A stretch of DNA of 64,000 nt from Bacteroidales bacterium (GTDB lineage Bacteria; Bacteroidota; Bacteroidia; Bacteroidales; UBA932): contig JAFPVJ010000009.1 in assembly GCA_017400135.1 (NCBI GenBank), forward strand, positions 62,001 through 126,000. The letters run 5' to 3'. Shown one piece after another: positions 4,729 through 25,661 of the stretch. Position 1 is the stretch's first letter. Every line of letters begins with the position of its first letter. The notes beneath the pieces were generated by a model. It had not been told where the DNA came from. It did not search any database and saw only the letters and a list, made by a program, of their open reading frames with translations. Position numbers and translations under genes: made by a program.

Positions 4729-4736
<8 letters not shown>
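4569..4736 (+). CDS. Small hypothetical protein upstream of the integrase
   Basis: A 55-residue peptide (MYFKRDLTNARRNQF at the start, a helical middle with ILNYFDAIAEIGYRSF). The frame is open further upstream to 4431, but that part reads like non-coding leader. It overlaps the integrase start by 8 bases, which suggests translational coupling. It could be a recombination directionality factor, since these are small basic proteins encoded beside serine integrases, but there is no motif to prove it. Confidence 0.45.
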
Positions 4737-6374
<1,638 letters not shown>

Positions 6375-8682: not shown

Positions 8683-10494
8683 ATGAAGGATTTCGTTAAA
8701 ATGGTTCTGGCCGTCATCTGCGGCCTTTTTATCCTCGGCATTATTTGTTTCATCCTTTTCTTCGGTATGATCGGTTCGATGGCGGCCGCCGGCAGCGGCA
8801 CCCCGTCCATCCCCAAGGATGCGGTCCTGAAGATCGACATGGGTGAGATCACGCTGGCCGAGCAGTCTTCGGAAGAGTTTTCCATGCCCACCATGGCATC
8901 CCTGCAGGGCTCCCAGACCGCGACGGTCGGTATCTGGGATGCCGTCCGCGCCATAAACGCCGCTGCGGAAGACAACAATATCAAGTATATCTATCTCCTG
9001 CCGGAGATCACCTCCGCCGGGATGGGACACATCTATGAGTTCCGCACGGCGCTGCAGCATTTCCGCGAGAGCGGGAAACCCATCATCTCCTATATGGACA
9101 ACGTGAGCACGGGTGCCTATTACCTCGCATCCGTTTCGGACAAGGTCTACATGACCTCCCATGATGGCATCACGTCCATGTTCCACGGCATCAGCGGCCA
9201 GATGATCTTCCTCAAGGACATCCTCGACAAACTGGGCGTCAACGTGCAGCTGATCCGCCACGGCAAATACAAGTCCGCCGGAGAGATGTTCGTCCGCAAT
9301 TCCTCCAGCCCCGAAAACATGGAGCAGAACCAGGAGATGATCTCTTCCATCTGGAAGGAGTTCCTGCTCGGAATCTCTACCAGCCGGGCCATCCCCGTCG
9401 AGGAGCTCAATGCCCTGATCGACGGATTGAAGCTCAATTTCCCGCAGGACTTCCTCGATGCGAAGCTCGTGGACGGCCTGCTGACGAAAGAGGAGCTGAA
9501 AGGCAAGCTGGCCGACCTGGCCGTCGTCGACAAGTTCAAGGATGTCAAGATGGTATCCTTCAGCGACTATGTCTCAGCCAAGGCCACAGCCAACGTCAAG
9601 GCGAAGAAGAAGATCGCCGTCGTCTATCTGGACGGTGACATCGTGGACGGGAAGGCCAAGCAGAACATCGCCGGCGACCGTTTTGCCAATGTCCTTGCCA
9701 AGGTGCGGGCCGACTCGACCGTCAAGGCGGTTGTCTTCCGCGTCAATTCTCCAGGCGGCAGCGTCCTGGCCTCCGAGAAGATCCGTGCGGAGGTTGAACT
9801 GCTCAAGGCCGACAAGCCCGTCGTCGCATCCTACGGCAACTATGCCGCTTCCGGCGGCTACTGGATTTCCGCCGGCTGCGACCACATCCTGTCCGATCCG
9901 ACCACGCTGACCGGATCGATCGGGGTGTTTAGCATGATCCCCGACTTCAGCAAGACCATGAAGGACATCGCACACGTCACCTACACCCCTGTCAAGTCCA
10001 ACAAGCATTCCGACATGATGTCCCTGATGCGTCCCCTCGATGCGGATGAGACCGCTTACATGCAAGCTTCCGTCGAGCGCATCTACGACCGCTTCGTCAG
10101 CCTGGTGGCGGAAGGCCGCAACCTGACCTACGACTTCGTGGACGGCGTGGCCCAGGGCCGCGTCTGGACCGGTCGGGACGCCCTTTCCATCCATCTCGTG
10201 GATGAGATCGGCACCCTGGAAGACGCCATCAAATGGGCGGCGGATGCCGTAAGCGAAAGCCTGGAAGAAAGCGAATTGAAGAATTGGAACATCGTCGCAT
10301 ATCCCAAGCCGCAGACGACCATGGAGCAAATGATGGATATGCTGGGCAACAAGCCTTCCGGCGAGGAAATCTTCAGCGGAACGGTCCTGGAACCGGCGGC
10401 GAAAGCCTTGATAAACTGGGTCGATGGCCTTAAGGACGGTCAGCGTTCCGTCATGGTTACGCGTATGCCTTACGAGATCGTCTGGGCTGACTAG
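8683..10494 (+). CDS. sppA: Signal peptide peptidase SppA, 67K type
   Basis: A 603-residue membrane-anchored serine protease that degrades cleaved signal peptides. One N-terminal membrane segment (residues 5-30) is followed by two tandem S49 domains. The catalytic lysine lies in RHGKYKSAGEMFVRN of the first domain and the nucleophilic serine in YAASGGYWIS of the second, as in the double-length E. coli-type enzyme. The second domain also shows VNSPGGSVLASEKI. It stands alone on its strand, with stop overlapping the stop of the converging LacI-family gene. Confidence 0.95.
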   Translation: MKDFVKMVLAVICGLFILGIICFILFFGMIGSMAAAGSGTPSIPKDAVLKIDMGEITLAEQSSEEFSMPTMASLQGSQTATVGIWDAVRAINAAAEDNNIKYIYLLPEITSAGMGHIYEFRTALQHFRESGKPIISYMDNVSTGAYYLASVSDKVYMTSHDGITSMFHGISGQMIFLKDILDKLGVNVQLIRHGKYKSAGEMFVRNSSSPENMEQNQEMISSIWKEFLLGISTSRAIPVEELNALIDGLKLNFPQDFLDAKLVDGLLTKEELKGKLADLAVVDKFKDVKMVSFSDYVSAKATANVKAKKKIAVVYLDGDIVDGKAKQNIAGDRFANVLAKVRADSTVKAVVFRVNSPGGSVLASEKIRAEVELLKADKPVVASYGNYAASGGYWISAGCDHILSDPTTLTGSIGVFSMIPDFSKTMKDIAHVTYTPVKSNKHSDMMSLMRPLDADETAYMQASVERIYDRFVSLVAEGRNLTYDFVDGVAQGRVWTGRDALSIHLVDEIGTLEDAIKWAADAVSESLEESELKNWNIVAYPKPQTTMEQMMDMLGNKPSGEEIFSGTVLEPAAKALINWVDGLKDGQRSVMVTRMPYEIVWAD

Positions 10495-11501
10495 ACCGGC
10501 TTCACGGAATCTCTGACAACAAGACCCGGCGGGAGGAACAAATGAGAGACGTTCTTCTCGCCGGCGATGTTTTTCAGCAGCAGTTTGACCGCCATCAGGC
10601 TGATCTCCTGCACAGGCTGGGCGATGCAGGTGATCCGAGGAGTCATGTAGTTGAATATCAGGTTGTCATCGAAAGAGATGATGGAAACGTCATCCGGGAT
10701 GTGGCGGCCGGACTCCGTTATGGCTTTGACAGCCCCCAGGAGGATCTTGTTGCTGAGAACGATGATGGCGGTCGGACAGTCAGGACCATTTAAAAGCAGG
10801 TTGGTTTCAGCATAGCCGTTCTGGATAGAGAACTTGTCTCCGGAGACATGGATGTGCTCCTCAAGTCCAAAGCGCCGCATTGTGTCCTCATACCCCCTTA
10901 CACGCTCACGGGAGGTCATCGCTCCGAGACTGCCCTGGATGCAGGCAATCCGGCGATGGCCGTTGGCTACGAGGTGCTCCACCGCCATGACGGCACCCTT
11001 GTAATTATCCGTCGTCACGAAGGACCACCGTGCCCCTTTTTCAAAATATCGGTCCACGACCACCATGGGGACATCCGCATTGGCGACCCTTTCGAAGGCC
11101 TTGGTTTCGCGGCCGCAGGGGACGGTAAGAATGCCATCAACCTTGCGCGCCAGCAGCGTGGAAAAGCCCTCGCTTTCGTTTTCTTCGCTCTCCTGGGTGT
11201 CGACGACGATGGTCGTATAGCCCAAGTTCCTCGCCTCTGCGATGATGGAGCTGGCGATCCCGGAAAAGAAAGTATCATCTACGCTGGGAATCAGCAGGCC
11301 GATAGTGTCGGTCTTGCCCTCCCGAAGCCCCTTGGCGAGGAGGGATGGTGTATAGTTGGACAACTTTGCCACTTCCTGTACACGGGCGACCGTCGCTTCA
11401 CTGATGCGATAGCGGTCTGCTTTCCCACTGAGGACGCGGGAAACGGTCGAAACCGAACATTGTGCCTTTTCGGCAATGCTGGCCAGGGTGTCGAGTGCCA
11501 T
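10491..11501 (-). CDS. LacI-family transcriptional regulator
   Basis: A 336-residue repressor-type regulator. The N-terminal helix-turn-helix with hinge (ASIAEKAQCSVSTVSRVLSG, then YRISEATVARVQEVAKLSNYTPS) is standard, followed by a periplasmic-binding-protein-like sensor domain (GLLIPSVDDTFFSGIASSI, and MTPRITCIAQPVQEI near the end). I start at the ATG at 11501. It is divergent from the susC-susD operon with a 152-base spacer holding a palindrome, so it most likely controls that operon in response to a sugar or nucleoside. The effector is unknown. Confidence 0.93.
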   Translation of the reverse strand: MALDTLASIAEKAQCSVSTVSRVLSGKADRYRISEATVARVQEVAKLSNYTPSLLAKGLREGKTDTIGLLIPSVDDTFFSGIASSIIAEARNLGYTTIVVDTQESEENESEGFSTLLARKVDGILTVPCGRETKAFERVANADVPMVVVDRYFEKGARWSFVTTDNYKGAVMAVEHLVANGHRRIACIQGSLGAMTSRERVRGYEDTMRRFGLEEHIHVSGDKFSIQNGYAETNLLLNGPDCPTAIIVLSNKILLGAVKAITESGRHIPDDVSIISFDDNLIFNYMTPRITCIAQPVQEISLMAVKLLLKNIAGEKNVSHLFLPPGLVVRDSVKPV

Positions 11502-11520
11502 AATAAAACCTCCGTTTCCG

Positions 11521-11528
11521 CAAAAATA
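11521..11528 (-). promoter_or_regulatory. -7 box of the LacI-family gene
   Basis: Minus-strand TATTTTTG, 19 bases upstream of the start at 11501. Confidence 0.55.
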
Positions 11529-11582
11529 CACTCAAAAAAGCAAAAAAAACAAGGAGAAAGAATAAAATACCGATAAAATTAA

Positions 11583-11608: not shown

Positions 11609-11653
11609 CTAAAATCTAACTATAACCACAAACTTTATTAACTCAAAAACGTA

Positions 11654-14600
11654 ATGATTATGAATCAAAAGTTCATTGTTCGTTTCTGCCTGGCAGCTGC
11701 GCTGCTCTGCGGACCGGTCTTCGCGTCCGCATACGCCGCCCCTGCCAAAGCCGATTCCGACCAGACACCGGGCAAGACGGTGACTGTCCGCGGCGTCATC
11801 TATGACGACCAGGGCCAGCCCCTTCCCGGCGCGAGCGTGATGGTCAAGGGCACGACCCAGGGCACCGTCACCGACCTGGACGGTCGCTACTCTCTGAACG
11901 TCCGCCCCGACCAGACCCTCGTGGTCTCCTTCATCGGCATGAAGGACCAGGAGATCCCGGTCAACGGCCGCACAAGCATCAACTCCGCACTGGAGGATGC
12001 CGCCACGACCCTCGATGACGTCGTCGTCGTCGGTTACGGCGCCATCAAGAAGGCCAACCTGACCGGTGCCGTGGACGTCGTCGACTCCAAGGCATTCGAG
12101 AACAGGGTCGCGGCCAACGTCGACCAGATGCTGCTGGGTAACATGCCCGCCGTCGAGATCGCCACCATCGACGGTGCTCCCTACCGTGACGTCAACAACC
12201 TCTCCGGTTATCAGATCCGCGGTACCTGGAACACCCTGGCGTCCAGTTCGGCTGCCGGCGACTACTTCGGCTCCCTGGTCCTCATCGACGGCGTCGAGGG
12301 CGACCCCGCCAGCCTGAACCCCAATGATATCGAGAGCGTGTCCGTGCTGAAGGACGCCGCCGCCTCCGCCATCTACGGAAGCCGCGGTGCCTACGGCGTC
12401 ATGCTCATCACCACCAAGAACGCTCCCAAGGAGGAGATGGTGACCGTCTCCTACAGCGGCAACTACAACTTCATGACCCCTACGGCCACGCCCGACCTCG
12501 TCACCGACGGTGAGCTCTACACCCAAATCCGGGCGGAGGCGTACTATGGCTGGTACGGCAAGTATGCCAACACGGCCAATGTCTGGCCTGCCAGCACCAA
12601 CCTGACGACGATCACCGCCGGCTACCAGGATGCCGAGAAGCAGGCAGCCGCCGTGGGCGGCGTCTATACGACCAACAAGGGCAAGTACGAGTATTATGGC
12701 AACACCGACTGGTGGAAGGCGATCTTCAAGGACCACACCGCCTCGCAGATCCACAACGTTTCCATCAGCGGCAACAACGGCAGAGTCAGCTACCTGCTCT
12801 CCGGCCGTATGTACGACTACGACGGCATCTATGTCGGTAAGTCCGACCCCTACAAGAAATACAACCTCCGTTCGAAGGTCGACATCAAGATCACCGACTG
12901 GCTCTCCATCGGCGAAAACATCGAGTATGCCAAGGACAAGGTCGACTACGGTATCTCTTCCAACGGTAACGGCATGAACGCCCCTCAGGTGCGCGCCAAG
13001 ACCTACGGCGCTCCGACATGGCCCATCTACAACCCGGACGGCACCTTCACCAAGGCCGGCGGCTTCATCCTCTCCGGCTTGGTCGGCGACTCCTACGACC
13101 CGATTTCCTACAAGCGTAAGGGTAAGACCAAGGACGTCAACGCGTTCAGGACTTCCACCTCCCTCGCTGCCGCCTTCTTTGACAACACCCTCCGTTTCCA
13201 CGCTGACTATACCTACCGCACCAAGGACATCGTTTTCGAGACCAAGGATACGGGTATCTGGTACAGCGACAGTGTCGATCCCGCTACGGGCCAGGCCGTC
13301 ATGACCTTCACGCAGCCCGACAACGGCAATCCCGCGAAGAACGACATGTACCGCCAGAGCATCCGCCGCAACACGACCAGCCAGGACTGGAGCGTCGTCA
13401 ATGCTTACGCCGAGTATGAGAACACCTTCGACAGGCACTGGCTCAAGACCATGGTCGGTTACAACTACGAGAAGCGCAACCGTATGGACGAGGAGATCAA
13501 GATGTACGGCCTCGACTACTGGGATGCGGACGCCGCCAACCCTTGGGCCTATGCCCTCGGCACCATCGAGCGCAACGGCGAAGCTGCGACCGGCTATGCG
13601 CAGTACTGGGACGGCAGCAAGGCCAAGCACTGGCGCAACGCGGGTGTCTTCTTCCGCGTGAACTACGCCTTCGACGACCGCTACCTGTTCGAGTTCAACG
13701 GCCGCTACGACGGCTCCTCCGTGTACGTCAACCAGTACCAGTGGGGCTTCTTCCCGTCGGCTTCCGCCGCGTGGCGCGTCTCCCAGGAGCACTGGTGGAA
13801 GGTCAATCCCAAATTCATCAGCGCCCTCAAGTTCCGCGTATCCTACGGCGTGCTCGGCGACTGCATGAGCGCGGGCGCCTACAACACCGAGGATACCTTC
13901 AACATCGACGTCGCCAGCAACCGCGTCATCAACGGAGCCTCCACCTACAGGGTCTATGAGGTTCCCGACGTGACCAACTACCAGTACACCTGGTCGAAGC
14001 TGAAGACCTTCAACGTCGGTGCCGACGCCTCGTTCTTCAACAACAAGCTCGACGTCACTTACGACTACTTCATCCGCCGCAACGTCGACATGCTTACTCC
14101 CGGTACGGAGCACGCTGCCGTCTACGGCCAGTACGGTGCCAACAGCAACCTGGGCAACAACGCCTCGATGTCCACCTACGGATGGGAGCTGACCGTGCGG
14201 TTCAACCAGCCGTTCATGCTGGCCGGCCGTCCCGGACACTTCGGCGTCCACGCCTCCATCAGTGACCACTACGCCATCGTCGACGAGTACAACGGCAACG
14301 AGTCCGGCAGCATCAAGCCCTTCACCTATCACGTGGGACAGCGGCTCGGAGACTTCTACGGTCTGCGCAGCAACGGCCTGTTCAAGACCCAGGACGAGAT
14401 CGACAACGCCTTCGGACAGGGCAAGCCTTACGTCATCGCTGACGAAGACATGCGCTACCACTCCAAGCAGTCCGACATCCGCGTCGGTGACCTCTGGATC
14501 AAGGACCTGAACGGCGACTACAAGATCGACTTCGGCAACATGCAGCTCGACGACATGGGCGACCTTGAAATCATTGGTAACAAGTGGGCCCGGTATCCGT

Positions 14601-15727
14601 TCTCCTTCGGCTTCGACTTCGACTGGGCCAACTGGTACTTGAGCGCCAACTTCCAGGGCATCATCCACCAGGACTTCATCGCGTACGGCGGCTTCATGCC
14701 GTTCAACCTGTACGCCAACCCTTACGGACCGATGACCAAGTGGAGCGTCGACAAGTATGCCAAGTTCGACGAGAACGGCAACTTCATCAACCCCGACACC
14801 GCGATCCTGCCCGGCCTCTCCCAGGGCCACAGGCTCCTGCGTGACCACACCCAGACCAACTGGAACGTCAAGTATGCCGATTTCCCCATCGATGCGTATG
14901 TCTACAACGCCGGTTACATCAACCTGCAGAACCTGCAGTTCGGCTACAACCTGCCCCGCAAGCTCATCAGCAAGGTCGGCATGACCGCCGCGAAGATCTA
15001 CTTCTCCGGCGAGAACCTCTGGAACTGGTCTCCCTTCTATAAGATCTTCGGCCGCGACTTCGACATCACGACCCTCACCTACGGTGGTGACGATCCTACC
15101 GAGGCCCTCAACTGGTTCAACGGTTACGGCTTCCAGTATCCGAAACTCCGCACCTTCTCCCTGGGTCTGAACGTGACCTTCGGCGCCCGCAGCGCCAAGG
15201 CCGCCAACACCGGTGCCAACACGGCCGCCCTGACGGCCGCCCTCACCGCCGCGAACGCCGCCGCTGACGCCGCCAATGCCGCCGCCGCCAAGGCACAGGC
15301 AGAGGCCGATGCCCTCCGCGCCGAGCTCGCCAAGGCCCTCAAGGCCAAGGACGACTGCGAGGCCGCCAAGGATGTCAAGCCCATGGCTGTCCGCCGCGCC
15401 GAGGCTCTCCACCTCGAGGACATCTTCTTCGAGATCAACCAGAGCGTCATCCGCGACTCCGAGGCCCACAAGGTCGACAACCTCGTCAAGGTCCTCAAGG
15501 CCAATCCCACTGCGAAGGTCAGCATCACCGGCTACGCCGACCAGGGTACCGGCACCGAGCAGCGCAATTACGTGCTCACCAAGGAGCGCGCCGAGGTGGT
15601 CGCCGAGGCCCTGAAGGCCGCCGGCATCGGCCCCGACCGCATCTCTACCGAATACTACGGCACCGAGAAGGACTCCTCCTGGACTCCGGAAAACAACCGT
15701 GTCGCCGTCTGCATCGTGAACGACTAA
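11654..15727 (+). CDS. SusC-type TonB-dependent transporter fused to OmpA domain
   Basis: A 1357-residue outer-membrane protein. Order: signal peptide (to about residue 29), carboxypeptidase-D-like regulatory domain (40-110, GASVMVKGTTQGTVTDLDG), TonB box VVVVGYG (about 120), plug domain (LIDGVEGDPASLNPND, SVLKDAAASAIYGSRGAYG), and a long beta barrel whose last strand (FSLGLNVTF) ends at residue 1176. Ordinary SusC proteins stop there. This one goes on without a break into an Ala-rich coiled coil (1177-1245, with repeated AADAANAAAA-like units) and an OmpA-type peptidoglycan-binding domain (DIFFEINQSVI, ITGYAD, NYVLTKERAEVV) with the conserved Asp and Arg that bind diaminopimelate. It should import a SusD-bound ligand while being anchored to the cell wall. 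susD starts 14 bases after its stop. Confidence 0.93.
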   Translation: MIMNQKFIVRFCLAAALLCGPVFASAYAAPAKADSDQTPGKTVTVRGVIYDDQGQPLPGASVMVKGTTQGTVTDLDGRYSLNVRPDQTLVVSFIGMKDQEIPVNGRTSINSALEDAATTLDDVVVVGYGAIKKANLTGAVDVVDSKAFENRVAANVDQMLLGNMPAVEIATIDGAPYRDVNNLSGYQIRGTWNTLASSSAAGDYFGSLVLIDGVEGDPASLNPNDIESVSVLKDAAASAIYGSRGAYGVMLITTKNAPKEEMVTVSYSGNYNFMTPTATPDLVTDGELYTQIRAEAYYGWYGKYANTANVWPASTNLTTITAGYQDAEKQAAAVGGVYTTNKGKYEYYGNTDWWKAIFKDHTASQIHNVSISGNNGRVSYLLSGRMYDYDGIYVGKSDPYKKYNLRSKVDIKITDWLSIGENIEYAKDKVDYGISSNGNGMNAPQVRAKTYGAPTWPIYNPDGTFTKAGGFILSGLVGDSYDPISYKRKGKTKDVNAFRTSTSLAAAFFDNTLRFHADYTYRTKDIVFETKDTGIWYSDSVDPATGQAVMTFTQPDNGNPAKNDMYRQSIRRNTTSQDWSVVNAYAEYENTFDRHWLKTMVGYNYEKRNRMDEEIKMYGLDYWDADAANPWAYALGTIERNGEAATGYAQYWDGSKAKHWRNAGVFFRVNYAFDDRYLFEFNGRYDGSSVYVNQYQWGFFPSASAAWRVSQEHWWKVNPKFISALKFRVSYGVLGDCMSAGAYNTEDTFNIDVASNRVINGASTYRVYEVPDVTNYQYTWSKLKTFNVGADASFFNNKLDVTYDYFIRRNVDMLTPGTEHAAVYGQYGANSNLGNNASMSTYGWELTVRFNQPFMLAGRPGHFGVHASISDHYAIVDEYNGNESGSIKPFTYHVGQRLGDFYGLRSNGLFKTQDEIDNAFGQGKPYVIADEDMRYHSKQSDIRVGDLWIKDLNGDYKIDFGNMQLDDMGDLEIIGNKWARYPFSFGFDFDWANWYLSANFQGIIHQDFIAYGGFMPFNLYANPYGPMTKWSVDKYAKFDENGNFINPDTAILPGLSQGHRLLRDHTQTNWNVKYADFPIDAYVYNAGYINLQNLQFGYNLPRKLISKVGMTAAKIYFSGENLWNWSPFYKIFGRDFDITTLTYGGDDPTEALNWFNGYGFQYPKLRTFSLGLNVTFGARSAKAANTGANTAALTAALTAANAAADAANAAAAKAQAEADALRAELAKALKAKDDCEAAKDVKPMAVRRAEALHLEDIFFEINQSVIRDSEAHKVDNLVKVLKANPTAKVSITGYADQGTGTEQRNYVLTKERAEVVAEALKAAGIGPDRISTEYYGTEKDSSWTPENNRVAVCIVND

Positions 15728-15740
15728 TATGGATACGATT

Positions 15741-17546
15741 ATGAAAAAGATATTCAAACTCTTCGCCATCACGCTTTCCGTTGCGACCGTAGCCGTCTCC
15801 TGCGACTTGTCGGAGTACAACCCCAACGAGCCCGGATACGAGAAGGTCTTCAGCAGCGCGACCAACGTCCAGTACGTGATCAACAGCTTCTACGGCGGCT
15901 TCGGCTCCGTGACCAACGCTTATAGCAAGGACGTTCCGACCGATTACTTCCCCGCCCAGAACCTCTCCGCGAGGTTCCAGAAGGGCTATTCCGCGACTTC
16001 CACCGACACCTGGGGAGAATGGGACGACATCTTTCAGTACAACTACGTGCTGACCCAGCTCAACAGTTCCGCCGCCTCCGCTCTTTCTCAGGCCGAGAAG
16101 GAGAACTTCATCGCCCAGGTCCGCCTGTTCCGGGGCCGGAAGTACTACCAGATGGTCCAGCAGTACGGTGACCTGCCCTGGTACGACCACGTGATCGGCG
16201 CCGCCGACACCGACGACGAGCACAAGGACCGCGAGAGCCGCGACGTCATCATGAAGCACGTTCTTGAGGATCTCGACTATGCCATCGAGCATATCACGGC
16301 CACCAGCCCCGACGCCACCTGCGTCAGCAAGGAGGTCGCCCTGTTCCTCAAGATGCGCGCCTGTCTGTATGAGGCCTCGTTCCGCAAGTACAACAACGTG
16401 ACCGCCTCCGTCAAGGGCGAGCCCTTCACCAACTACACCGTGGAGCAGCTCTACCAGCTCGCCGCCGATGCCGCAAAGCAGATCATCGACGGTGGCAAGT
16501 ACCAGCTGATCTCCGACTGGCGCAGCCTCTTCCTGAGCGACAATCTCCAGACCAAGGAGGTCATCCTCGGCGCACAGACCGCCGCCAACATCCAGGGCAG
16601 CCAGAACCACTACTTCGTCTACACGAAGCAGAACGCTCCCAAGTCCCTGACCCGCACGTTCGTCAACACCTTCCTCATGCAGGACGGCACCCCTTACACC
16701 GACAAGGCCGGTTACGCCACCGAGACCTGGAAGGACGAGTTCACCAACCGTGATCCCCGTCTTGCCCTCACCGTCCGTTATCCTGGCTACAAGTTCGCCG
16801 GTGCCACGGCGGTGCCCGACTTCGGCGCGTCCTTCCTGGGCTACCAGATCCGCAAGTTCTGCCTGGACAAGTATGCGGAGACCAACGGAGCCGATCCGGA
16901 TGAGAACGAAAAGCACAACTCCAACAGCACGCCTATCTTCCGCTATGCCGAGGTGCTCCTCACATATGCGGAGGCCAAGGCTGAGCTGGGCCAGATGGAC
17001 AACACGGTCTGGGCGCAGACCGTCGGCGCGATCCGCCAGCGTGCGGGTATCACCGGCAGTAGCCTGACCACCGTCCCCACGACCGTGGACAACTATCTCA
17101 AGACCAACTACTATCCCGACGTGACCAACGCCGCGATCATGGAGATCCGTCGTGAGAGGGGTATTGAGCTCTGCATGGAAGGTGTCCGTGATTTCGACCT
17201 CCTCCGCTGGGGCTGCGGAAGCCTTCTTTCCACCGCACCTTGGGACGGTATCAACATCGATGCCGTGAACACGGCCCTTGACCTCGACGGTAACGGTACC
17301 GATGATGTTTGCTTCTACACCTCCGCCTCGAACAAGGTTGACGGTGTCGTGAATATCCCTGTTGACGGTTCGACCGGCCTGACGGTCGCCAACAACGGCA
17401 ACAAGAAGCAGCTCAGGTACGATATCGATACCGAACTGCGCTACTGGGCTCCGGACGGTCACCTCATCCTGGATGCCATTCCTTCTCAGGAAATTGCGGC
17501 TTACAGCAAGTTGGGCTACACCCTGACCCAGAACCCCGGATATTGA
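15741..17546 (+). CDS. SusD-like surface lipoprotein
   Basis: A 601-residue SusD/RagB-family lipoprotein that captures ligand on the cell surface and closes over the SusC channel. The signal peptide with lipobox (AVSC, Cys20 or so) is followed by NPNEPGYEKVFSS and the helical TPR-like core, with family motifs FIAQVRLFRGRKYYQMVQQYGDLP, IFRYAEVLLTYAEAKAELG, IRQRAGI and IRRERGIELCMEGVRDFDLLRW. Its start is placed at the ATG 15741 just before the signal peptide. It is the partner of the SusC-OmpA fusion and a terminator follows, so the operon is just these two genes. No glycoside hydrolase is adjacent, so ligand identity is open. Confidence 0.95.
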   Translation: MKKIFKLFAITLSVATVAVSCDLSEYNPNEPGYEKVFSSATNVQYVINSFYGGFGSVTNAYSKDVPTDYFPAQNLSARFQKGYSATSTDTWGEWDDIFQYNYVLTQLNSSAASALSQAEKENFIAQVRLFRGRKYYQMVQQYGDLPWYDHVIGAADTDDEHKDRESRDVIMKHVLEDLDYAIEHITATSPDATCVSKEVALFLKMRACLYEASFRKYNNVTASVKGEPFTNYTVEQLYQLAADAAKQIIDGGKYQLISDWRSLFLSDNLQTKEVILGAQTAANIQGSQNHYFVYTKQNAPKSLTRTFVNTFLMQDGTPYTDKAGYATETWKDEFTNRDPRLALTVRYPGYKFAGATAVPDFGASFLGYQIRKFCLDKYAETNGADPDENEKHNSNSTPIFRYAEVLLTYAEAKAELGQMDNTVWAQTVGAIRQRAGITGSSLTTVPTTVDNYLKTNYYPDVTNAAIMEIRRERGIELCMEGVRDFDLLRWGCGSLLSTAPWDGINIDAVNTALDLDGNGTDDVCFYTSASNKVDGVVNIPVDGSTGLTVANNGNKKQLRYDIDTELRYWAPDGHLILDAIPSQEIAAYSKLGYTLTQNPGY

Positions 17547-17610: not shown

Positions 17611-17645
17611 TATATTTGATTATGGAGTGGAGATTCTTAACTTTG
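17611..17645 (+). promoter_or_regulatory. Two candidate -7 boxes for the nucleoside-hydrolase gene
   Basis: TATATTTG at 17611-17618 and TAACTTTG at 17638-17645 both fit. The second lies 27 bases before the lipoprotein start at 17673 and is the better placed. Confidence 0.5.
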
Positions 17646-17672
17646 AAAAGAATAACGATTGACCTGCCTGCC

Positions 17673-18641
17673 ATGCGCCATTATTTCCTTCTTTTCATTG
17701 CTGCCGCAACGCTTTTCTCCTGCAACGAAGCCCTGACTCCGGAAATCATCCTGGAAGACCTTCAGAGTGACCGGATCAAGGATGTCGTCATAGACAGTGA
17801 CACGTATAACGAGATGGACGACCAGTATGCCATCGCATACGCCCTCGCATCGGACAGGATGAATGTCCTGGCGCTGCACGCCGCCCCCTTCCATAATGAC
17901 AGGAGCACGGGCTTTGCAGAAGGGATGGAACTGAGTTTCAAGGAAATGGAAAGAGTCCTGGAGGTCACCGGATGCCAGGGAAAGTATCCCGTGTTCAAGG
18001 GCGCGGAGAAAAGCGTCAGCGACGACCCGGACCAGTTCGATCCGAATAATCCGGCGGCACAGAACCTGGTAAGCATCGCCCGGAAGGCCCGCAAGCCGGT
18101 CTATGTCCTCTGCCTGGGGGCGATTACGAACGTAGCCGCGGCACTGATGCTGGATCCTTCCATCAAGGGCAGTATCGTCGTCGTCTGGCTGGGTACGAAT
18201 TGTTTCAGCAGGGGGAATCTCGAGGAATTCAATCTTTACCAGGACTATATGGCTGGGCAGAAGGTCGTAGACTCGGGCGTACCGCTGGTGATCCTTCCGG
18301 CCATGGGAAAGCGTGGAGAAGGTACGCAGGTGCTGCGCGTCGATCAGGAAAAAATACAAGCCATCCAGGGGGAAGGCCGTGCCCAGCGGTTCTTCCGTTC
18401 CGAACTGCCGCAGGAGTTCCACGACACGCAGGGGGAATGGCGCCATATCTTATGGGACGTCGCAGCTCCCGGGCTGGTCGCCCATCCGGAATACTACCGC
18501 CTCCGTGTCATTCCTGCCCCCATTCTCACAGATGACCGGCAGTTCGCTTTCGACAGCACGCGGCACCGGATCGTCTGGATGGATTCCCTCGACCCGGATG
18601 CGGTCTTCTCCGACCTGTTCAGCTGTCTGTCAGCGAATTAG
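17673..18641 (+). CDS. Nucleoside-hydrolase-like lipoprotein
   Basis: A 322-residue protein with lipoprotein signal peptide (ATLFSC, Cys17) and a nucleoside hydrolase fold. The calcium-binding motif appears as DSDTYNEMDDQYA, a longer variant of the usual DTDPGxDD, and LCLGAITNVAAAL matches the conserved GPLTNxA segment. Such enzymes cleave the N-glycosidic bond of nucleosides to ribose and base. Being lipid-anchored it would act outside the cytoplasm, which fits a scavenging role beside the SusC-SusD pair, though it has its own promoter after a terminator. The variant motif makes the exact substrate uncertain. I start at 17673, at the signal peptide. Confidence 0.8.
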   Translation: MRHYFLLFIAAATLFSCNEALTPEIILEDLQSDRIKDVVIDSDTYNEMDDQYAIAYALASDRMNVLALHAAPFHNDRSTGFAEGMELSFKEMERVLEVTGCQGKYPVFKGAEKSVSDDPDQFDPNNPAAQNLVSIARKARKPVYVLCLGAITNVAAALMLDPSIKGSIVVVWLGTNCFSRGNLEEFNLYQDYMAGQKVVDSGVPLVILPAMGKRGEGTQVLRVDQEKIQAIQGEGRAQRFFRSELPQEFHDTQGEWRHILWDVAAPGLVAHPEYYRLRVIPAPILTDDRQFAFDSTRHRIVWMDSLDPDAVFSDLFSCLSAN

Positions 18642-22556: not shown

Positions 22557-23465
22557 ATGGAAAGAATCAGACGCAAAACACGGAGTTTCAACGTTTTCGA
22601 AGGACACGCGCACTATACCCCCGCCGTTCGCGGGATGTTCGCCCTGCTGGGGCTGCTGCTGGTCGGCGCCCTTTTCGGCTCGCTCGTCACCGTCTTGCTG
22701 ACCCTGATCTACGGAGCTTCCTTCGCCACGGAATACGGCACCCTGGTCGCCTATCCCCTGATGTTCCTCCCGCCGATGATGTACGCCGGATTCAAGAGCC
22801 GCAGCAACGCCGTCTTCGAGCAGGGTTACGCCCTGGACAGCAACCATTTCGGGAAGTTCGGCGGCATCGTGTGCGCCTTGATGGCTACCGCCGCCGTATT
22901 CGCAGCCGCCTTCATGACGGACGCCATCAACGCGCAGATGCCCCCGATGCCGAAATGGCTGGACGACGCGCTTACCTCGATGACGCAGGGCAAGCTCTGG
23001 GTCAACCTCCTGTGCGTCTCCATCTTTGCTCCCCTCTTCGAGGAATGGCTCTGCCGGGGCATGGTCCTGAGAGGCCTTCTGAATGCCAAGAATTATGACG
23101 GGTCCGCCCGCATCGCTCCCGTCTGGGCGATCTTGATTTCCGCCCTTTTCTTCGCCGTCATCCACGCCAACCCCTGGCAGGCAATTCCCGCCTTCATCCT
23201 GGGCTGCCTGTTCGGCTATATTTATTACCGCACCGGCTCGCTGAAGCTTACGATGCTGATGCACTGCGTCAACAACACTTTCGCCGTCATCTGCGGGCAG
23301 ATCGATTCGCTCAAGGAGATGGACAACTGGCTGGATGTGCTTCCGGGCAGGCAATATTGGGTCCTGTTCGCCGCCTGCGCACTGCTGCTGATCCTGATCG
23401 TGCGTGCCTTTGGCAAAATCCCCGTCCAGTCCCCCGCCGGCAACTGCGATCCCGTTTCCGAATAG
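22557..23465 (+). CDS. CPBP family intramembrane metalloprotease
   Basis: A 302-residue integral membrane protein with about seven or eight helices. The family motifs are EEWLCRG (EExxxR, near residue 161), FFAVIHANPWQ and LMHCVNNTF, supplying the glutamates and histidines of the metal site. CPBP (Abi) proteins are type II CAAX-protease-like intramembrane proteases; the bacterial substrates are mostly unknown. It lies 4 bases after the nucleotidyltransferase and 1 base before the AmgK-like gene, so it is part of that transcript. Confidence 0.88.
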   Translation: MERIRRKTRSFNVFEGHAHYTPAVRGMFALLGLLLVGALFGSLVTVLLTLIYGASFATEYGTLVAYPLMFLPPMMYAGFKSRSNAVFEQGYALDSNHFGKFGGIVCALMATAAVFAAAFMTDAINAQMPPMPKWLDDALTSMTQGKLWVNLLCVSIFAPLFEEWLCRGMVLRGLLNAKNYDGSARIAPVWAILISALFFAVIHANPWQAIPAFILGCLFGYIYYRTGSLKLTMLMHCVNNTFAVICGQIDSLKEMDNWLDVLPGRQYWVLFAACALLLILIVRAFGKIPVQSPAGNCDPVSE

Positions 23466-23466
23466 C

Positions 23467-24879
23467 ATGGAAAGATTGGAAACACTGTTTCGGAATCACT
23501 TCGGAAGAGAAGCCGGCTCCATCGTCCCGCTTCCCTCTTCCGGCAGCCACCGCCGCTATTTCAGGATCGGCGACGGGGAGGGCACCCTCATCGGCGTGAT
23601 CGGCACCGATCCGGACGAGAACCGCGCCTTCATCACGGAGGCCCGCCATTTCCGCAGCAAGGGAATACGCGTGCCGGAGGTATATGCCGTCTCCCCGGAT
23701 GAGATGTGTTACATCCAGGAGGATCTCGGCAACGATTCCCTGTATGAGCTCATCGCGGAAGGCCGAAGCACCGGCGTCTATTCGGAAGAAGAGTCCGTCC
23801 TGCTCTGCAAAGCCATCCAGGGCCTGCCGAAAATCCAGTTCGAAGGCGCAGAGGGCCTGGATTTCAGCGTCTGCTACCCCGACTCGGAGTTCAACGCCCG
23901 GATGATCGATTTCGACTTCAACTATTTCAAATATTGCTATCTCAAGACGGCCGGCATCGAGTTCAAGGAGATTCCCCTCCAGGACGACTTCGACCGCCTG
24001 AAGGCAGATCTGCTGGAGACGCATACTGACACCTTCCTCTATCGCGACTTCCAGACCCGCAACATCATGATCCGCGACGGGGAGCCTTGGTACATCGATT
24101 TCCAGGGCGGCCGCAAGGGACCCATCTGGTACGACCTGGCCTCCTTCATCTGGCAGTCCCGTCCCCGTTTCCCCAAGCCGCTCAAGGAGCGGATGATCCG
24201 CACCTACCTCGATTCGATGAAGCCCTATTCCGACATTCCGGAAGACGTGTTCCGCAGCAAGCTGCGTCTCTTCGTGCTGCTGCGCACGCTGCAGGTCCTG
24301 GGCGCGTACGGATACCGGGGAAAATATGAGAAAAAGGCCTATTTCATCGAGAGCATCCCCTACGCGATGGGCAACCTGCGGGAAATCCTCGAGACGCCCT
24401 TCGAGCGCTATCCCTACCTGGATTCCGTGCTGCGGAAACTCTCTTCGCAGGATTCAACGTCCATGGAGACCGATGCGCTTGAGGTGCATATCTACAGTTT
24501 CGCCTACAAGAAAGGCATCCCGGCAGACGAGTCCGGCAACGGAGGTGGCTATGTCTTCGACTGCCGCGGCATGCACAATCCCGGGAAATACGACCGCTTC
24601 AAGAACTCGACCGGACGGGACCTGGACGTCATCGCGTTCCTGGAAGAGCACGGCGAGGTGCAGGAATTCATGAATTCCGTCCAGGCGCTCGTCATCCCGC
24701 ACGTCGAGCGCTACATCGCCCGGGGATTCAGCCACCTCCAGATCTGTTTCGGCTGCACCGGCGGCCAGCACCGCTCCGTCTATTGCGCGGAGACGCTCGC
24801 CCGCCTGCTCCAGCGGAAATACCACATCCGCATCCGCCTGACCCACCGCGAGATGGGTCTTGATACCGTCCTGGGATGA
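23467..24879 (+). CDS. amgK: AmgK-like sugar kinase fused to RapZ C-terminal domain
   Basis: A 470-residue two-domain protein. Residues 1-330 are an aminoglycoside-phosphotransferase-type kinase (GSHRRYFRIG, catalytic LYRDFQTRNIMI near 191, metal-binding WYIDFQGGRKGP near 210), as in AmgK, the anomeric kinase for N-acetylmuramate in murein recycling. Residues about 337-470 match the RapZ C-terminal domain (VFDCRGMHNPG, FGCTGGQHRSVY), which in E. coli senses glucosamine-6-phosphate. The next gene, overlapping by 4 bases, is MurU-like, which supports the AmgK assignment. The fusion suggests that amino-sugar level controls the kinase; that is inference. The start at 23467 is chosen over 23404, which would lie in the CPBP gene. 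Confidence 0.85.
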   Translation: MERLETLFRNHFGREAGSIVPLPSSGSHRRYFRIGDGEGTLIGVIGTDPDENRAFITEARHFRSKGIRVPEVYAVSPDEMCYIQEDLGNDSLYELIAEGRSTGVYSEEESVLLCKAIQGLPKIQFEGAEGLDFSVCYPDSEFNARMIDFDFNYFKYCYLKTAGIEFKEIPLQDDFDRLKADLLETHTDTFLYRDFQTRNIMIRDGEPWYIDFQGGRKGPIWYDLASFIWQSRPRFPKPLKERMIRTYLDSMKPYSDIPEDVFRSKLRLFVLLRTLQVLGAYGYRGKYEKKAYFIESIPYAMGNLREILETPFERYPYLDSVLRKLSSQDSTSMETDALEVHIYSFAYKKGIPADESGNGGGYVFDCRGMHNPGKYDRFKNSTGRDLDVIAFLEEHGEVQEFMNSVQALVIPHVERYIARGFSHLQICFGCTGGQHRSVYCAETLARLLQRKYHIRIRLTHREMGLDTVLG

Positions 24880-25661
24880 AGGCGATGATCTTTGCCGCCG
24901 GTCTCGGCACCCGGCTCCGGCCCCTCACGGACACGATGCCCAAGGCGCTCGTGCCGGTAGACGGCGTGCCCCTGCTGAAGCGGGTGGCCACCCGCCTGCT
25001 GGAGGCCGGGGCGGAAGAACTGGTCATCAACACGCATCATTTTCCCGAACAAATTGCAGCCTACGTAGCCGCTGAACGGGGTTTCGGCGTGCCGGTGCAT
25101 CTTTCGCCGGAGCCGGAGCAGTTATTGGAAACGGGGGGCGGCATCCTGCATGCCCGGAGCTTCCTGGAAGGCAGCGGTCCGTTCCTGGTCCACAACGTCG
25201 ACATTCTTTCCAACCTGGACCTGCGGCGGTTTTTCGCCGAAGCGCGGCCGGAGGCCCTGGCCACGCTGGTCGTCAGCGAACGGCAGACCAGCCGCTATTT
25301 CCTCTTCGACGAAGGGATGAGGCTGGTCGGCTGGACGGATCTCCGCACCGGCGAGGTACGCAGTCCCTTCCCGGGCTTGGTTCCGGGGCGCTGCCGCCGA
25401 CTGGCCTTCGCCGGCATCCACTGGATCTCCGACCGTATCTTCGACGTCATGGACGATTATTGCCTGCAAGGACGGTTCTCCATCGTTGACTTCTATTTGC
25501 GCGCCGCTGCGGAGCATCCCATCTACGGCTATGTACCGGAGGACTTTCGCATGCTGGACGTCGGCAAACTCGATTCCCTGGAGGCGGCCGGCGCGCTAGT
25601 GCGCGAACTGGGCGAGGCGGCGCCCCTTTGCGATTCCGGCGAAAAGTCCATACATTTGTAG
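24876..25661 (+). CDS. murU: MurU-like MurNAc-1-phosphate uridylyltransferase
   Basis: A 261-residue nucleotidyltransferase. The loop MIFAAGLGTRLRPLTDTMPKALVPV is the classical GxGTRxxPxTxxxPKxLxPV form, with VHNVDIL supplying the metal-binding Asp and ISDRIFDV further on. Length and context match MurU, which makes UDP-MurNAc from MurNAc-1-phosphate and UTP and so bypasses de novo synthesis. It overlaps the kinase gene in ATGA. The last codons contain the -7 box of the next gene. Confidence 0.83.
   Translation: MKAMIFAAGLGTRLRPLTDTMPKALVPVDGVPLLKRVATRLLEAGAEELVINTHHFPEQIAAYVAAERGFGVPVHLSPEPEQLLETGGGILHARSFLEGSGPFLVHNVDILSNLDLRRFFAEARPEALATLVVSERQTSRYFLFDEGMRLVGWTDLRTGEVRSPFPGLVPGRCRRLAFAGIHWISDRIFDVMDDYCLQGRFSIVDFYLRAAAEHPIYGYVPEDFRMLDVGKLDSLEAAGALVRELGEAAPLCDSGEKSIHL
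25651..25658 (+). promoter_or_regulatory. Internal -7 box before the porin
   Basis: TACATTTG inside the murU 3' end, 6 bases before the porin ATG at 25665; gives a second, leaderless transcript. Confidence 0.5.

Follow-up and report, generated by a model that had tools for sequence, protein, structure and literature searches.

A SusC gene that runs on into an OmpA domain

The stretch of DNA analysed here (the window, 64,000 nucleotides from a Bacteroidales genome) contains a gene, P0001, in which a complete SusC importer and an OmpA-type domain share one open frame. The gene, its parts and its neighbours are as follows.

10491-11531, minus strand: LacI-family regulator, divergent to the fusion gene (PF00356, PF13377; best NCBIfam match RbsR, below cut-off)
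11654-15727, plus strand: SusC-OmpA fusion gene P0001, 1357 aa (single open frame, domains)
11786-12028, plus strand: CarbopepD_reg_2 domain, residues 45-125 (PF13715, E 3.3e-20)
12050-12400, plus strand: TonB-dependent plug domain, residues 133-249 (PF07715, E 1e-13)
12401-15181, plus strand: SusC barrel, ending at F1176 (TIGR04056 to its last profile position; structure match)
15182-15409, plus strand: Ala-rich linker, residues 1177-1252, with a predicted helix at about 1187-1237 (two AlphaFold2 models)
15239-15727, plus strand: replaced 3' part of the fusion gene, best breakpoint after residue 1195 (breakpoint test against the homologous loci L036 and L033)
15410-15724, plus strand: OmpA-type domain, residues 1253-1357 (PF00691; fold matches to PorE, Pal and OmpA, best E 2e-9)
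15539-15541, plus strand: D1296, aligned with the Asp that binds diaminopimelate (conserved across 47 of 47 fused tails)
15587-15589, plus strand: R1312, aligned with the Arg that binds diaminopimelate (conserved across 47 of 47 fused tails)
15729-17546, plus strand: SusD partner, 605 aa (PF07980, E 8.6e-38)
17616-18641, plus strand: inosine-uridine nucleoside hydrolase-like protein, start codon placed mechanically (PF01156, E 6.6e-21)

The frame is without break over its whole length. Both the plug and the CarbopepD N-terminal extension of the SusC family are present, and TIGR04056 matched residues 44-1176 with 704 bits (cut-off 368), covering profile positions 2-981 of 981. The barrel end at residue 1176, which an earlier note had read together with the unbroken frame from the letters alone, is thus the last position of the profile; in the AlphaFold2 model, the last barrel strand spans residues 1165-1178. 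Unlike the usual SusC, which ends at this strand, the protein continues for 181 residues. The Pfam OmpA model matched residues 1258-1348 above its cut-off (E 1e-14), whereas none of the NCBIfam OmpA-type models reached cut-off on the fusion protein; the OmpA label therefore comes from Pfam and the fold.

The two AlphaFold2 models were of moderate confidence (pLDDT 69.8 and 67.7). When the model of residues 158-1357 was compared with SusC structures, TM scores normalised by target length ranged from 0.69 to 0.80 (22 SusC/RagA rows). A helix of about 50 residues was predicted between the barrel and the OmpA domain. A fold search with the tail returned PorE, Pal and OmpA domains, including OmpA bound to diaminopimelate (3td4) and to a pentapeptide (3td5), as well as TolB/Pal complexes; the models thus suggest that the tail adopts an OmpA/Pal-type fold. 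These predictions, together with D1296 and R1312, agree with the Ala-rich coiled coil and the OmpA domain bearing both key residues that the earlier note had described.

The SusD frame begins one base past the stop codon of the fusion gene. The nucleoside hydrolase-like gene is probably part of the same locus; in L033, the gene order is SusC-OmpA, a 600-aa frame, a phosphodiesterase and a nucleoside hydrolase.

Recurrence of the fusion within one genus

In the source genome, 31 SusC proteins and 10 OmpA-domain matches were found, both in the same protein in five cases, on five contigs. The SusC count comprises matches over cut-off, nine further SusC matches lying below it. All 26 unfused SusC proteins over cut-off, judged by their last 25 residues, stop at or within about 1 residue of the last strand, as the earlier note had supposed to be normal. 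A SusD gene directly follows each of the five fusions, and the neighbours identified at four of the five are unlike one another (nucleoside hydrolase, pectinesterase, rhamnosidase, M3 peptidase).

The search for further fusions in Bacteroidales, proposed in the earlier note, was positive within the genus, very probably Candidatus Cryptobacteroides. Fused frames were found in 27 of the 250 sampled genomes, with at least 72 match rows and up to nine per genome; the best 10 candidates per genome were scored at E 1e-50, and weaker or further fusions may escape. The other 223 genomes gave no SusC-OmpA match, and the tail is therefore dispensable. Outside the genus, samples of 393 genomes of the order (E 1e-30) and 395 of the phylum (E 1e-27) yielded no further fused frame with the best 6 candidates per genome, thresholds at which weaker fusions may escape. 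The bacterial group with these tails is one of the gut and rumen.

Across many other assemblies, a fused frame was present at 41 of 80 loci. The junction itself recurs in L036, L035, L034, L033, L037 and L039, which are 88, 66, 66, 60, 54 and 53% identical to the window's protein over residues 158-1357, a span that takes in the tail. The tail can be present in one importer and absent from a close relative, as in L075 (with) and L169 (without). A chimeric assembly or a frameshift joining two genes has a negligible probability, given the five fusions on five contigs and the loci from other assemblies; because relatives there share the junction, such artefacts are excluded for practical purposes.

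Exchange of the tail among unrelated barrels

On a tree of the barrels, which carries long-branch warnings, fused and unfused proteins were interleaved, requiring 16 changes of state, of which 11 were forced by starred branches. The fused label was still more clustered than expected by chance (16 changes versus a mean of 22.2 after shuffling; 1 shuffle of 500 as low). On the tree of the tails, by contrast, 46 of the 47 fused tails formed one group, and 2 changes sufficed; this grouping has a support of 85, is not starred and was obtained from 125 columns. Set against each other, the two trees rule out one ancient fusion followed by vertical descent only, and the 11 forced changes on the barrel tree speak against a single clade of fused barrels. 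The nearest standalone relatives of the 46 tails were two-domain OmpA genes, with only two of the standalone OmpA proteins on this tree known from the source genus.

Pairwise comparisons point the same way. Some barrels only 26-30% identical carry tails that are 80-89% identical; for two fusions of the source genome (C22 and C24), the values are 26% and 83%, respectively, and fourfold sites are alike at 47 of 56 positions in the tail versus 61 of 141 in the barrel. In L036 and L039, which belong to one assembly, the barrels are about 50% identical, whereas the last 83 aligned residues are 97-100% identical in amino acids and 99-100% in nucleotides. Between fusions with unrelated barrels, DNA likeness stops within about 60 nucleotides past the stop codon. 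Slow evolution of the OmpA part, considered as a cause of the high tail identity, was not supported, as tails averaged 75% identity in 38 pairs whose barrels were 70-90% identical. Among distant barrels, mean tail identity was not higher within genomes than between them (689 of 2000 label shuffles gave values as high). Variation within the tail lies in the linker, of which there are two main types, one of them having EVVKEV-like repeats broken by proline; the C7 tail has diverged and is missing the usual end.

The tail of the window's own gene is a replacement, and the tail behaves as a cassette exchanged among unrelated SusC barrels. Both this exchange and the place of the gene in a set of fusions of the genus go beyond the earlier note.

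A putative wall anchor and its alternatives

We consider it probable that the tail anchors SusCD importers to peptidoglycan whatever their substrate, and that recombination has spread it. The fusion would serve as the SusC component in a SusCD importer of the ordinary kind, its helical linker carrying the OmpA domain into the periplasm, where the topology of SusC barrels would place a C-terminal extension. There, the OmpA domain would bind peptidoglycan, as its two ligand residues and its fold suggest, and fasten the importer to the cell wall. The cassette would consist of the linker and the OmpA domain, roughly the last 300-500 nucleotides of the gene; its source was most likely an OmpA gene from within this lineage, recombination then having placed copies of it at the 3' ends of unrelated SusC genes across the genus. 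Since it is found on unrelated SusC genes, its job would be independent of the substrate. The benefit may be that importers are braced against TonB force or fixed in place, as the earlier note had suggested, or that the outer membrane is stapled to the wall. Replacement of a major OmpA, which the earlier note had also raised, is ruled out by two barrel-OmpA genes, accompanied by further OmpA-domain genes, in the source genome; these remaining OmpA proteins also weigh against the anchor reading, since additional anchors would seem less needed. More tentatively, a shared wall-anchor cassette, spread by recombination, could be added to SusCD importers or taken off them whatever the substrate, making chosen importers staples between outer membrane and peptidoglycan, and anchoring an evolvable trait of nutrient import.

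Other roles for the tail appear unlikely, to differing degrees. SusCD complexes are dimers, and the predicted helix of about 50 residues after the barrel would suit a periplasmic dimerisation or packing element of SusC2D2, with wall binding minor or absent; it is, however, the linker that varies, conservation lying in the OmpA part with its two ligand residues, and we regard this role as improbable. Docking of the OmpA domain to another envelope protein instead of the wall is less probable again: Pal, whose fold is a close match, has TolB as a binding partner besides peptidoglycan, but both ligand residues occur in 47 of 47 tails, in line with diaminopimelate binding. Slightly lower still we place a neutral or self-spreading recombination cassette, a periplasmic tail doing little harm to a barrel. 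Repeated gain and exchange, and the presence of the tail in 27 of the 250 genomes of the genus, would fit such an element; against it stand the dN/dS values of the OmpA part (0.00-0.32 in eight chosen pairs), the same invariant ligand residues, and the long, fused-size frames of window-barrel homologues to as low as 49% identity.

If the tail is an anchor, importers would be fastened to the wall in a manner so far unreported, which bears on how SusCD complexes hold against TonB force, on importer mobility and on the linkage between outer membrane and wall. Tailed and untailed close relatives such as L075 and L169 make all of these questions directly testable. The barrel-folding signal normally lies at the very C-terminal end of barrel proteins, and the exchange of tails represents modular evolution at this terminus. 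SusCD importers are described as characteristic and abundant in the Bacteroidota outer membrane (PMC12611786). In the open-access literature, no description of a SusC-OmpA fusion or its setting was found, in keeping with the earlier note, which knew of no example.

The fusion shares with SusC/RagA proteins (TIGR04056; RagA, the Bt1762-Bt1763 levan transporter) the CarbopepD and plug domains, a full barrel and an adjoining SusD, and its model matched their structures; it differs from the 26 other SusC of the genome over cut-off in running 181 residues past the last strand. The top fold match, the type IX secretion protein PorE, also has an OmpA domain within a larger Bacteroidota envelope protein, but is not known to have an importer barrel. 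Pal and OmpA-domain lipoproteins have the OmpA fold, with Asp and Arg that align with those of the fusion tail; they are held by a lipid, whereas the OmpA domain of the fusion is held by an importer barrel in one frame. Finally, the two-domain OmpA proteins of the source genome (L017 and L018) have a similar Ala-rich linker and an OmpA C-terminal domain with Asp and Arg, the fusion having a SusC importer barrel in place of their small N-terminal one.

The fusion gene and its neighborhood

The fusion gene encodes 1357 amino acids in a single frame (window 11654-15727, forward strand), which agrees with the unbroken SusC-to-OmpA frame claimed in the earlier note. The SusC/RagA profile TIGR04056 covers residues 44-1176, reaching its last profile position. 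The following features were found:

Residues 45-125 of the fusion: CarbopepD_reg_2
Residues 133-249 of the fusion: Plug
Residues 1258-1348 of the fusion: OmpA
Start at 15729, one base past the fusion stop codon: SusD frame
Beyond SusD: nucleoside hydrolase-like gene
Upstream of the fusion, divergent: LacI-family regulator

At the related locus L033, the order is fusion, 600-aa frame, phosphodiesterase and nucleoside hydrolase; based on the gene neighbors in both loci, the window locus probably serves nucleoside or nucleotide scavenging. A 1424-aa open frame opposite the fusion (11609-15883, reverse strand) is probably a by-product of base composition. A serine recombinase with Resolvase and Recombinase domains is encoded a few kb from the fusion (4729-6342), and APH-type kinase and RapZ C-terminal domains are combined in one protein at 23404-25661, adjoined by a nucleotidyl transferase.

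Distribution of SusC-OmpA fusions

The window's genome has 28 contigs totalling 2.31 Mb and is 88.6% complete; the OmpA-domain search gave 10 matches in it and the SusC search 40, with 31 above the cut-off. Both domains occurred together in five proteins, on contigs C6 (the window), C7, C19, C22 and C24, each directly followed by SusD; the C19 fusion is without its N-terminal part, its profile match beginning at position 106. The remaining 26 SusC proteins above the cut-off stop at the last strand or within about one residue of it, going by their 25 C-terminal residues. Neighbors were identified for four of the five fusions and were all different: a nucleoside hydrolase (window), a pectinesterase (C24), a rhamnosidase (C7) and an M3 peptidase (C22). 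On contig C18, two closely related SusC genes stand back to back, with about 630 bases between them (L166, 83189-86710, reverse strand; L165, 87337-90858, forward strand); expression of this pair may be controlled by inversion.

At E 1e-50, profile A1, which spans the last strands, the linker and the OmpA domain, matched 27 of 250 genomes of the genus (72 match rows, at most 9 per genome); of the 98 genomes with completeness of 90% or more and contamination no higher than 5%, it matched 12. Some rows came from short frames of 319 to 930 aa, and the frame in L023 begins at a contig edge. In the family sample, 148 of 149 genomes matched one half of the profile and, among the matches listed, rows spanning both halves without a stop came from two genomes: the window's and G097, a member of another genus, in whose fusion the barrel shares 79% identity with that of L022 from the genus member G003. 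Six of the 393 genomes in the order sample matched at E 1e-30, five of them with standalone OmpA frames of 371-400 aa. The search for such fusions proposed in the earlier note thus found them in genomes of the genus and in G097; in the order sample fused frames occurred in the window's genome only, which also gave the only match in the phylum sample (1 of 395 genomes, E 1e-27). Viral sequences contributed two loci, on contigs 168 kb and 94 kb long, both standalone OmpA-domain proteins and no fusion (L031, 5386-6516, 377 aa; L032, 5203-6300, 366 aa).

Among the named genomes, 92 relatives were found; the best 80 comprised 41 fused and 39 unfused proteins, two of the latter cut by a contig start. 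An assembly artefact was practically ruled out by these 41 fused relatives and by the five fusions on five contigs of the window's genome.

Exchange of the tail and the mosaic window gene

The tail is a cassette exchanged among SusC barrels. On a tree of 74 barrels (47 fused and 27 unfused, 26 of the latter from the window's genome), in which long branches meet in places, the fused/unfused label requires 16 changes, 11 of which are forced by starred branches; a FastTree run likewise interleaves both kinds. Even so, fused and unfused barrels cluster more than under shuffled labels, which needed 22.2 changes on average (1 of 500 as low as 16). The tree of 93 OmpA domains (47 fused and 46 standalone, the latter a partial sample picked by likeness to fused tails) requires two label changes: 46 of the 47 fused tails form one group (support 85, not starred), which adjoins the genome's own barrel-OmpAs, L017 and L018. 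The C7 fusion (L014) stands apart, with a third, divergent kind of tail that lacks the usual NRVAVC end, and is perhaps an independent fusion.

Barrels were less than 35% identical in 958 of the 1081 fusion pairs, and the best-matching of these 958 share tails 80-89% identical. In the 26 such pairs with tails at least 78% identical, agreement at fourfold sites was 0.59 in the tail versus 0.44 in the barrel; for C22 and C24, 47 of 56 such sites were alike in the tail versus 61 of 141 in the barrel. In a comparison of 13 chosen gene ends, fusions whose barrels are unrelated were similar in DNA from 310-500 nt before the stop codon to at most about 60 nt past it. In assembly CAMYVB, the barrels of L036 and L039 are about 50% identical and their end parts are the same or nearly the same in DNA, possibly an assembly collapse. 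The opposite is seen as well: the barrels of L024 and L055 are 67% identical but their tails 47%, with different linker types. On average, no excess of tail identity was found within genomes (56.4 versus 55.5% between genomes; 689 of 2000 shuffles as high).

The window fusion gene is itself a mosaic. Its barrel is closest to that of L036 (89% on tree columns) and its tail to that of L033 (97%), a gene with 60% identity over residues 158-1357. The best breakpoint lay after residue 1195: informative sites are divided between L036 and L033 by 840 to 326 before this point and by 17 to 85 after it (p = 1.7e-28, which is optimistic, as the breakpoint was picked for maximal contrast). Mosaicism extends to the N-terminal part (11654-11950, first 100 residues), where residues 1-50 are 94% (amino acids) and 90% (nucleotides) identical to L034 versus 33% and 42% to L036, the nearest barrel. 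Barrel residues 701-1176, searched against 200 genomes of the genus, gave nine rows from 7 genomes: six with 49-100% identity, whose frames measure 1342-1410 aa, and three with 42-44% identity, whose frames of 1083-1180 aa have the size expected without a tail, as judged by length.

Predicted structure and role of the tail

Two main linker types were observed, Ala-rich (as in the window) and with EVVKEV-like repeats. Structure prediction of the C-terminal part, also proposed earlier, yielded a helix at residues 1187-1237 and an OmpA fold (tail alone: pLDDT 69.8, pTM 0.50). An alpha-helix rises 1.5 Angstrom per residue; the 51-residue predicted helix would therefore span about 76 Angstrom, a length compatible with reaching the wall. 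The model of residues 158-1357 (pLDDT 67.7, pTM 0.64) resembled the SusC structures of the levan utilisome (8a9y, TM 0.80) and RagA (6sln, TM 0.76; both by target length). In structure comparison, the tail model matched PorE, Pal and OmpA domains, including Acinetobacter OmpA with diaminopimelate (3td4) or a pentapeptide (3td5, TM 0.75 by target length). The relevant passage of PMC5974059 describes diaminopimelate as bound by Asp271 and Arg286 of that protein. Both ligand residues attributed to the OmpA-type domain are indeed present: D1296 and R1312, kept in all 47 fused tails, correspond to an Asp and an Arg in the alignment with Pal and PorE.

The tail-bearing importers of the window's genome probably serve different substrates, and dN/dS was 0.00-0.32 in eight pairs of our choosing. 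One kind of tail on such importers, its conserved ligand residues and the low dN/dS fit a mechanical role, a putative tethering to peptidoglycan. The idea that the fusion replaces a major OmpA did not hold, since two barrel-OmpA genes remain in the genome.

No description of a SusC-OmpA fusion or its setting was found in the open-access literature searched, within which the absence of a described example still stands. In the passages concerned, a Pfam survey of 34,893 TonB-dependent transporters sets their classes by N-terminal domains (PMC6434023), and PMC12611786 handles SusC, a 22-strand barrel, and OmpA, an 8-strand protein anchoring the outer membrane to the cell wall, as separate proteins.
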